From positions 1 to 64,000 of the forward strand of contig NZ_CALUXO010000018.1 in assembly GCF_944324745.1 (NCBI RefSeq): DNA of 64,000 nt. Reading direction: 5' to 3'. Below are positions 1 through 1,749 of this stretch, one piece after another. How positions within the stretch are numbered: the first letter of the stretch is position 1; each line of letters starts with the position of its first letter. The position numbers and the translations under genes were made by a program. The notes below the pieces were generated by a model. That model was not told the origin of the DNA. It was given only the letters and a program-made list of their open reading frames with translations, and made no database searches. The stretch is from an uncultured Thomasclavelia sp. (GTDB taxonomy: Bacteria; Bacillota_I; Bacilli_A; Erysipelotrichales; Coprobacillaceae).

Positions 1-16
1 TTTCATATTTACCTCC
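1..16 (-). promoter_or_regulatory. RBS and first codons of a leftward gene leaving the window
   Basis: On the minus strand a GGAGGT ribosome binding site (16-11) precedes an ATG at 6-4 followed by AAA, after which the window ends. Only Met-Lys is visible, so the product is unknown. A short imperfect hairpin (GTCCG 23-27 with CGGAC 39-43) lies in its leader. The IS110 element stands directly upstream of this gene. Confidence 0.5.
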
Positions 17-84
17 ATTTCCGTCCGTCTTCGTCGGTCGGACACAAACATTTTATTAAAAATAATTTCTCTCCAATCGTTTTT

Positions 85-115
85 GTAGTATCCTATAAGA
101 GAGGTGGTATACTAC
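85..115 (+). repeat. inverted repeat at the IS110 left side
   Basis: GTAGTAT (85-91) pairs perfectly with ATACTAC (109-115), extended by CC/GG around a one-base bulge. It overlaps the possible extended -10 of the leader RNA and may mark or regulate the left end. Confidence 0.5.
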
Positions 116-302
116 AGAGCACGTGGAGGAGAGTAGGCAATTCTACTCGATATAGAATATCCTGAATATTTATAAGTCGCCGTCAGTCTTTCAAGCACAA
201 ACAAGTAGGACTTAGAGCCTGGACACTTAAGATTGTTTTAATCAACTATAGTGATATTTCGCAGACTGACAGTCAATGCCACTTCTCCTTTTTTGAAAGG
301 AG
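115..302 (+). ncRNA. candidate IS110 bridge RNA
   Basis: The region before the transposase holds a run of hairpins: GAGTAG/CTACTC (131-136 with 143-148); a bulged stem pairing 151-160 with 166-174; an 8-bp long-range stem (182-189 with 263-270) closing a loop of about 70 nt with an inner stem (203-209 with 218-228); and a terminator-like hairpin at 285-302. An extended -10 (TGGTATACT, 105-113) would start a transcript near 118-120, giving about 180 nt. Known of the family: IS110-group elements make a bridge RNA of about this size from the left end, with target- and donor-binding loops. That this is one is inference; which loop reads target or donor was not determined. Confidence 0.55.
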
Positions 303-309
303 TTTTTTT
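285..309 (+). terminator. hairpin and T7 run just before the transposase start
   Basis: CTCCTTT (285-291) pairs with AAAGGAG (296-302) around a 4-base loop, followed by seven T and then the ATG at 310. The 3' arm is the transposase ribosome binding site. The structure could both end the leader RNA and hide the RBS in transcripts entering from outside. Confidence 0.7.
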
Positions 310-1575
310 ATGCTTAAAATCCACCGTTTTAATTGTGCTGGTCTTGATGTTCACAAGAACCTTATTGTTGCCACCATTGGTATCACTGACAAGAAAACTC
401 GTGTCACTGAATATATTCAAAAAGTTTTCTCTTCTCTTAACTATGATCTCTATAACCTTAAAAACTGGCTTATTGAGCACAAATGCTTTGATGTCTGCAT
501 GGAATCTACCGGTAAATATTGGATCCCTGTCTTCAATATTCTTGAGACTGAATCTAAAATGAATATTGTCCTTGTTCATCCTAAATATGTCAAAGCTATC
601 AAAGGCAAAAAAACAGACAAGAAAGATTCCAAATGGATTTGTGATCTTTTCAAACATGATCTTCTCAAATCATCTTTTATCCCATCTAAGGATATTCGTG
701 AATTAAGAAATCTCTCTCGTTACCGCTTCAAGCTCATCTGTATGCGTACTTCTGAACGGAATCGTTATCAGAATTCTATGACCGTTTCCAATATCGCTCT
801 TGCTTCTGTTGTTTCTGATCCTTTTGGAAAAACAGCTAAAGCCATAATGAATGAAGTTCTATCTACTGAAGCTATTGATGAAGCTAAAATCACAAAACTT
901 ATACATGGCAGCTGCAGAAACAAAGACAAAATAATTGAATCTCTTAAAAATTCCAAGATTGAGCCCGATCAAAGATTTAAGATGACAGAAATTCAATCAC
1001 ATATGAATGAACTTGATAAACATATTGAAGCTGTTGAAATAGAAATCATCAAACGTGCTTCCAGATACTTTGATGATTTCATCCATATTACGGAAATTGA
1101 TGGAATACAGCTTATGTCTGCTATTCTTATCATTTCTGAAATCGGTGTTGATATGACACAATTTGAAACAGATAAACAGCTATGCTGCTGGGCTGGAGTC
1201 TCTCCTGCCAATAATGAAAGTGCAGGAAAGAAAAGATCAGTTCGTATCAGCAAAGCCGGGCAGTATCTTAAACCGGTATTAGTACAATGTGCATTGGCAG
1301 CCATCAGAAAGAAAAACAGTTATTTTGGTCAAAAGTATACAAGGATCAAGAAAAGAAGAGGACACAAGAAAGCAATCATAGCTATCGCAAGAATGATGCT
1401 TGTCAGTATTTATCACATGATTCTTACTGGAGAAAAGTTCAATCCTTCAGACTACGAATCATTTAAGGATCCAAAGCCACAAAGAGAAAAGAATAATTAT
1501 ACAGTTGAGACAGCACTGGACTTTCTAAAATCACAGGGATTTGATGTATCATCTATTCAAGAAATTCCTAAATAA
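310..1575 (+). CDS. IS110-family transposase (DEDD recombinase)
   Basis: A 421-residue transposase of usual family length. The N-terminal RuvC-like DEDD domain shows D13 (LDVHK), E65 (MESTG), D103 and D106 (KTDKKDSKW). A coiled middle section follows. The C-terminal Transposase_20 domain (about 255-345) carries the EIDGI and CWAGVSP motifs and S304 in NNESAG, the position of the family's catalytic serine. All key residues are present and the frame is open, so it may be active. It starts at ATG 310 with AAGGAG inside a hairpin (285-302). Known of the family: the enzyme excises a circle and inserts it under guidance of an element-encoded RNA. Confidence 0.93.
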   Translation: MLKIHRFNCAGLDVHKNLIVATIGITDKKTRVTEYIQKVFSSLNYDLYNLKNWLIEHKCFDVCMESTGKYWIPVFNILETESKMNIVLVHPKYVKAIKGKKTDKKDSKWICDLFKHDLLKSSFIPSKDIRELRNLSRYRFKLICMRTSERNRYQNSMTVSNIALASVVSDPFGKTAKAIMNEVLSTEAIDEAKITKLIHGSCRNKDKIIESLKNSKIEPDQRFKMTEIQSHMNELDKHIEAVEIEIIKRASRYFDDFIHITEIDGIQLMSAILIISEIGVDMTQFETDKQLCCWAGVSPANNESAGKKRSVRISKAGQYLKPVLVQCALAAIRKKNSYFGQKYTRIKKRRGHKKAIIAIARMMLVSIYHMILTGEKFNPSDYESFKDPKPQREKNNYTVETALDFLKSQGFDVSSIQEIPK

Positions 1576-1599
1576 TATTCTGTTTTTTCTAAATGAAAC

Positions 1600-1628
1600 C
1601 GAACTTGTTTTTAAGTTCGTCTTTTTTT
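1600..1628 (+). terminator. terminator after IS110 transposase
   Basis: CGAACTT (1600-1606) pairs with AAGTTCG (1613-1619), followed by a T-rich run. Confidence 0.8.
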
Positions 1629-1749
1629 GTGTTTTTACTCACGATTGGGTCAAATTATTTTTCACACTTCCTCCAGTAATAATGTAGCAAAAAAAAGATA
1701 AAGTTAGTTTATTTATTGATTAAGTGGTTGAAATTAATGATTGAACGGA

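Follow-up and report, generated by a model that had tools for sequence, protein, structure and literature searches.

What does the structured leader of an IS110-family recombinase gene do, and to which sites would it direct its element? The question is raised by the left edge of the window analysed here, a 64,000-nucleotide stretch (positions 1 to 64,000 of contig NZ_CALUXO010000018.1, hereafter C18, of assembly GCF_944324745.1) from an uncultured Thomasclavelia sp. (genome G000), where a first-pass annotation had proposed a bridge RNA ahead of the recombinase gene. Comparison of related copies shows the ends of the element, the structure of the RNA, the matching of its left guides to target and donor, the class of target and the order of the guides. 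Very probably the leader encodes an IS110/IS1111-type bridge RNA, with guides directed at start codons. The earlier proposal thus gains support from compensatory changes in the stems and covarying matches in the loops, and its anatomy is corrected below.

Because copies in other genomes agree to the same boundary while their flanks differ, the element is taken to span about 9-1669 of the window. The first-pass annotation had put the left end at 85, which the copies in other genomes move outward to about 9; the alignment of further copies that it had recommended gives ends at about 9-10 and 1668-1669 and a TT core. In G007, from the same genus, contig breaks coincide with the edges of this element, and six left ends are identical inward from CATAATT[C/T]CCTCCATTTCC, as are the right ends up to TTTTTCACACTT. 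The same edges are recovered from eighteen Merdibacter massiliensis copies for which both flanks are available; CAT closes the left flank at a fixed position in 18/18, and the right flanks are mostly of the Shine-Dalgarno type on the opposite strand. There are no terminal inverted repeats, and target duplication is limited to the TT core, as judged by eye at the ends and from the fucosidase empty site described below. The non-coding ends measure approximately 300 bp on the left and 92 bp on the right. Positions 1-127 of the window form an exact 127-bp overlap with positions 1-127 of contig C12 of the same genome, as expected of adjacent contigs, and the left flank therefore sits on C12. There the left target (LT) flank continues as a minus-strand gene starting ATGAAAGTTGC, which in our own reading of the sequence appears to encode a response regulator. 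The break between C18 and C12 at the left junction may stem from reads of a second copy or of a circular form. One further copy, in G018 (L175), lacks the usual left junction, and its left end looks recombined or truncated.

Leaders were taken from 91 of 100 candidate loci, nine being dropped for want of a leader anchor, and dereplicated to 46. Of these, 37 were aligned; the nine left out form a divergent group with a different target loop. RNAalifold returned 33 pairs for the 37 leaders, 24 of them with a double change in at least one sequence. A 41-pair model in window coordinates has 89.1% of its cells paired, against 78.1% in shuffled and 33-49% in slid alignments, and contains 169 double-change cells against 48.8 in shuffles, a value reached in 0 of 500. 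A structured RNA with two internal loops is thereby conserved among the 37 leaders. Its best supported helices are P0, P3 (double changes at 7/8 pairs) and P4, with P2b and P5 supported only within part of the set. Single-sequence folding energy was uninformative (z of -0.28 for 115-309 and -1.32 for 97-303), and since it shows nothing on its own, the evidence for the RNA is comparative. Rfam gave no match for the leader. The alignment consensus carries a TATAAT-like stretch just upstream of P0.

This structure modifies the anatomy first drawn for the leader. The RNA had been started at 115, whereas P0 puts its start near 97; its end at the 285-302 hairpin and U-run is retained. Among the four hairpins originally listed, 285-302 and the end stem of 182-270 (now P3) stand, and those at 131-148 and 151-174 occur only in the single-sequence minimum-energy fold and not in RNAalifold on the 37 leaders. 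The extended -10 proposed at 105-113 overlaps P0, inside the closing stem of the RNA, and is not supported. Neither the start-codon target nor the reversed guide order was part of the first-pass proposal. The two checks that had been set for the idea came out in its favour: most conserved helices show compensatory changes across the 37 leaders, and loop segments match the donor end and the target, with covariation.

The conserved pairing of 134-137 with 161-164 leaves two strands of the target-binding loop free as guides. The left target guide (LTG), AAUAUUU at 165-171, corresponds to CATATTT at 4-10 of the window. With left ends set by a rule independent of the guide (8 of 91 leaders had no left-end anchor and were dropped), 69 of the 83 usable leaders have at least 6 of the 7 positions paired; several left-anchor errors, including L101, L108 and L113, which match by another anchor rule, were kept in this count as misses. 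At positions 4-7, the 31 distinct guides have on average 3.613 of 4 bases paired against 2.271 when permuted (maximum 2.806; 0/5000), and 23 of them are identical to the target there. A scan of leader columns against flank positions, which used a third anchor rule and was blind to guide position, placed columns 168, 169, 170 and 171 on one LT diagonal (z of 8.1, 10.9, 9.6 and 7.5). Other high values, mostly at the core position, lay off this diagonal and are ascribed to kinship.

On the right side of the target, 82 of 84 sites could be aligned with the candidate guide at 124-131. Among nine offsets, offset 3 gave a pairing of 0.716 against 0.663 permuted (0/500), and offset 0 was equalled in 3/500. 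The best value in the right-flank scan (2520 column pairs) joined column 126 to the seventh flank base (z 3.8), and column 129 fell with the fourth base on the same antiparallel diagonal (z 3.1). Pairing with the right target therefore appears to be supported, but more weakly than that with the left. A second subfamily (L181-L185, five copies; recombinase approximately 47% identical) has the LTG, the left donor guide (LDG) and CAT in 5/5 copies. The same arrangement can be read there directly, with CATAATAA beside the left end and UAUAAUAA in the leader, and with a right end of TTCAGATTA and CAGAUUA in the leader.

The LDG could be read, with enough right-end sequence, in 87 of the 91 leaders. 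Its own six-mer was found in the right-end region of 84 of these 87 elements (the misses being L112, L120 and L131), compared with 18.6% on average for the six-mers of other elements; there are 14 distinct eight-letter guides. Guide and right end change together: CACTCTT occurs with GGACUCUU, CACCCTT with GGACCCUU, CAAACTT with GAAAACUU, CAAGCTA with GCAAGCUA, CACAGTA with GCACAGUA and CACGCTA with GCACGCUA. In the column scan, 225 (z 9.6) and 228 (z 6.9) share one diagonal with the right end.

The flanks place the element between the Shine-Dalgarno sequence and the ATG of genes. Taking as long any frame of at least 80 codons, or of at least 60 codons that reaches the end of the stretch, the insertion ATG opens a long frame in 54/68 cases, against 467/2175 for the remaining same-strand ATGs of these flanks. 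In gene sense the expected target would read GGAGGTGA-AA-NN-ATG. A few copies sit within genes, among them one G007 copy in a fucosidase gene, for which the left-hand contig was not identified. At the insertion point, three other genomes of the genus have an uninterrupted fucosidase orthologue with the sequence GGGGAGAA-AATT-ATGG, and two more orthologues, in G008 and G002, are one or two bases off. This empty site carries the motif again and indicates that insertion repeats only the TT core. The right flank ends four bases before the ATG, and a loss of four target bases was considered; the idea was dropped because the guide register and the fucosidase orthologues account for these bases as NN plus the TT core. 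That the constant bases after CAT belong to the element was likewise rejected, as guide comparison shows that the RNA specifies them. A search of the genus with the right flank found no empty site for the insertion in the window: the long matches begin at query base 124 or later, short of the junction, and a short match in G001 (query 10-77) was left aside. The left-flank gene has distant relatives only. Orthologues of the hydrolase have a length that fits the four-base gap, but the letters there (a glycine codon) differ from the expected AATT, so that this site speaks neither for nor against the motif.

The target loop pairs through its 5' strand (124-131) with the top strand and through its 3' strand (165-171) with the bottom strand, and the left guide of the donor loop is also on the 3' strand. 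In IS1111 seekRNAs the top-strand match is described as 5' of the bottom-strand match, and in ISEc21 as 3' of it (Siddiquee et al., PMC11187229); in IS621, the 5' side of each loop is described as pairing with the bottom strand (Durrant et al., PMC11208160). The guide order here is thus the reverse of that in IS621 and ISEc21, and as in IS1111, even though the RNA lies upstream of the gene. Under our conventions an ISEc21 control (L227) reproduced the published order. Of the traits of the IS110 group, the element has the upstream non-coding region and lacks the order with the top-strand match 3' of the bottom-strand match. Subterminal inverted repeats of the IS1111 kind (7-17 bp) were not seen between the ends by eye, and no program search was made for them.

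The intact DEDD/Ser recombinase announced by the first-pass annotation was borne out as a 421-aa open reading frame with Pfam domains PF01548 (DEDD_Tnp_IS110) and PF02371 (Transposase_20), which combines a DEDD RuvC domain with a conserved serine. It scores 238.5 bits against NCBIfam NF033542 (IS110 family RNA-guided transposase), and its relatives with solved structures are IS621 (8wt6, E 1.9e-7) and ISCro4 (9t56). A tree of 26 recombinases puts the clade with long IS110 proteins, apart from the rows taken as IS1111-like; its deep branches are long (6.38 for ISEc21) and give no firm order of IS110 and IS1111.

The left end has further features. CCTCC stands at the same place in the Merdibacter massiliensis copies, whereas most Lachnospiraceae-type copies have other letters there; read as GGAGG, CCTCC may serve as a replacement Shine-Dalgarno that lets the interrupted gene be translated. 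A palindrome at 20-42 retains its pairing while its letters vary across relatives, and for 31 of 44 distinct left-end segments no more than 5 of 100 shuffles reach a fold as low, so that it is a possible end-recognition feature. CACAAA(C/T)A occurs at 43-50 and again on the 5' side of the donor loop, with variable bases that tend to match; between 43-50 and 196-203, 20 distinct pairs have an identity of 3.75 at positions 6-11 against 3.20 permuted (0/2000). A search of the genus with a 194-base query from the source genome also revealed mini-elements of approximately 140-180 bp (14 of 17 loci read), too short for a gene. These keep about 45 bp of the left end, with the palindrome (lost in one) and CACAAACA, have a right end near TTTTATTTTCACACTT in most cases, and sit mostly at CAT. 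Besides the two listed in the table, others are found in G002, G005, G007 and G008. Their form suggests non-autonomous elements moved in trans.

Table. Features of the element and its surroundings; positions refer to the window unless a contig is named.
Feature	Position	Strand	Basis or remark
Left target (LT) flank TTTCATAT	1..8	+	reverse complement of start codon (CAT 4-6) plus two specified bases
Left core TT	9..10	.	copy comparison and guide register
IS110-family element body between cores	11..1667	+	both edges from copies in other genomes
CCTCC at left end	12..16	-	reads GGAGG toward the interrupted gene's ATG, five bases before it
Subterminal palindrome, about 10 bp inside left end	20..42	.	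fold test against shuffles; kept in most mini-elements
CACAAACA motif after palindrome	43..50	+	same letters as RNA 196-203
Predicted bridge RNA, approximate extent	97..303	+	start from stem P0, end from 285-302 hairpin
P0, 5' strand	99..109	+	pairs with 277-287; 95.3% of cells paired; double changes at 10/11 pairs
P1, 5' strand, base of target-binding loop	119..122	+	pairs with 176-177 and 179-180; 99.3% of cells paired
Candidate right-target guide	124..131	+	pairs with top strand; offset 3 best; 126 and 129 on one antiparallel diagonal
Apical stem of target-binding loop	134..164	+	134-137/161-164 well kept; 140-145/153-158 only in the window's subgroup
Left target guide (LTG) AAUAUUU	165..171	+	matches top strand 4-10 except first letter; pairs with bottom strand
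Predicted donor-binding stem-loop	182..270	+	P3 182-189/263-270, 94.3%, and P4 206-209/218-221, 100% of cells paired
Donor loop 5' strand CACAAACAAG	196..205	+	candidate place of right donor guide, by analogy with target loop
Left donor guide (LDG) GGACACUU	221..228	+	last six letters equal element right end 1664-1669 (ACACTT)
P0, 3' strand	277..287	+	pairs with 99-109
Hairpin then U-run, containing recombinase Shine-Dalgarno 296-302	285..302	+	sequence and folds
IS110 recombinase, 421 aa	310..1575	+	D13, E64, D103, D106 and Ser304 at the IS621 DEDD/S241 places
Right core TT	1668..1669	.	copy comparison and column scan
Right target (RT) flank CCTCCAGTAA	1670..1679	+	reverse complement of Shine-Dalgarno GGAGG; right flanks of other copies similar
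Mini-element L228	G000 contig C75 20650-20843		
Mini-element L239	G000 contig C29 34911-35081		

To account for these features we propose the following model. The RNA, presumably transcribed from the leader, would fold into a long closing stem, P0, that holds first the target-binding and then the donor-binding stem-loop. The LTG (YAU-NN-UU in most relatives) would pair with the bottom strand over the start codon, often with a G.U pair first, over the next two bases and over the TT core. Through this RNA the recombinase would hold the presumably circular element and the target together, with right-donor pairing as a presumed contact, and, with its DEDD RuvC domain and a serine whose chemistry we infer, would join them at the TT core. 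The element would thus come to lie between the Shine-Dalgarno and the ATG, if it is active in cells.

Several observations weigh against this model. The insertion ATG is intragenic or opens a short frame in 14/68 cases, and the LTG matches poorly in some leaders (including L109, L114, L120 and L172/L173). In the window copy the right-target match is partial, with 5/8 standard pairs and one G.T, and inspection by eye found no right-donor pairing for the 5' strand of the donor loop. In the recombinase, Ser-Ala stands in place of the Ser-Gly of ISEc21 and the IS1111-like rows. Moreover, the counts of guide against flank were made on related sequences, and permutation leaves their kinship in, for which reason the agreement of many differing sets of letters is the stronger argument.

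It is this agreement that bears on a leader acting only in cis, as an attenuator or a Shine-Dalgarno-sequestering hairpin of the recombinase mRNA, with no guiding function. The 285-302 hairpin does contain the recombinase Shine-Dalgarno together with the U-run, yet control of this kind fails to predict loop letters that change together with the right end and with the left flank outside the element, and we consider it exceedingly improbable as the sole role. Insertion at start codons might also reflect survival and not targeting, insertions elsewhere being lost and those that restore a ribosome-binding site being kept. Most sites are gene starts and the left end in this clade carries GGAGG toward the ATG, as such selection would have it; however, the core and the two bases next to CAT vary with the guide of the element itself, the fucosidase site, which lies within a coding sequence, shows the motif in orthologues free of the insertion, and copies of the Lachnospiraceae type that lack CCTCC are still found at CAT. 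Survival may add to targeting, and as a replacement for it seems very improbable to us.

The start-codon-directed bridge RNA could be real and the copy in the window nevertheless dead. The source genome has one full copy, with one guide mismatch (165) and only the partial match to the right target, but that copy has lost neither its open reading frame and catalytic residues nor its helices and ends, and its near relatives are multicopy, so that a dead copy seems unlikely. We are similarly doubtful that the clade is a displaced IS1111 branch whose RNA has moved upstream, which would make the reversed guide order unremarkable. Exceptions to the usual RNA position are on record for both groups (Siddiquee et al., PMC11187229), and the deep branches of the tree are long and only partly resolved. 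Against this, the tree joins the clade to long IS110 recombinases of Streptomyces, Klebsiella and Paraburkholderia, apart from the IS1111-like rows; its rows of 405-432 aa (L067 is longer) fit the 395-455 aa given for IS110 and not the 330-350 aa given for IS1111 (PMC11187229); and a long subterminal inverted repeat was not seen by eye.

Extended to the whole group, the bridge RNA model would describe a large Firmicutes clade of IS110 elements with an upstream bridge RNA and IS1111-type guide polarity, aimed at the Shine-Dalgarno and ATG, in which two or three guide bases tune the spacer and ATG accepted, the end restores a ribosome-binding site, and the same ends mobilise RNA-less mini-elements in trans. 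In this full form we judge the proposal about evenly balanced. If it is true, the elements keep a target that a large fraction of genes offers. The order of the guides and the position of the RNA can, by the present comparison, be separated within the family, which bears on the origin of IS110 and IS1111 and on how the recombinase reads its RNA. Recombinases with a TT core and many natural sets of guides would in effect represent natural reprogramming, useful for testing what the loops will accept.

Among known systems, IS621 is described as having an upstream RNA, target and donor loops with two guides each that include a 2-base core, and the DEDD and serine residues (PMC11208160, PMC11208158); the element here is alike in these respects, its right donor guide being a candidate. 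It differs in its opposite guide order, its CT core (TT here) and its S241-G242 (Ser-Ala here); in our element, moreover, the RNA has a closing stem between its two ends and the recombinase is approximately 95 aa longer. The ISEc21 seekRNA likewise comes from an upstream non-coding region of IS110 type, but its top-strand match is 3' of the bottom-strand match (5' here) and its target is unrelated (PMC11187229). In IS1111-type seekRNAs (ISEc11, ISPa11, ISKpn4) the top-strand match is 5' of the bottom-strand match, as here, whereas the RNA lies downstream of the gene, subterminal inverted repeats are present and the recombinase has 330-350 aa (PMC11187229). The accessible open-licence literature, bioRxiv excepted, yielded neither a reversed order for an upstream RNA, which the six bridge RNAs of Extended Data Fig. 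10 in PMC11208160 may include, nor a guide-RNA explanation of start-codon insertion.

Start-codon targeting by an IS110 element is itself already known and is not new here, because the motif of IS900 has been published. Going by the title of a 1997 paper by Doran et al., IS900 reportedly targets translation initiation signals. The published target motif of this element of Mycobacterium avium subsp. paratuberculosis is CATGNNNNNNTCTCCTT, with the start codon on one side and the Shine-Dalgarno on the other, the same target shape as here (PMC8141618). IS900 differs in carrying the hed reading frame, none being seen in our element, and in that its start-codon target is described, as far as that account extends, without a guide-RNA explanation (PMC8141618). 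The element in the window would offer an explanation by base pairing for this class of insertion, described for IS900 without a guide-RNA mechanism. Relative to the available parts of the accounts compared, what appears new is the guide order, the base-pairing basis of start-codon insertion and the presence of mini-relatives at the same kind of site.
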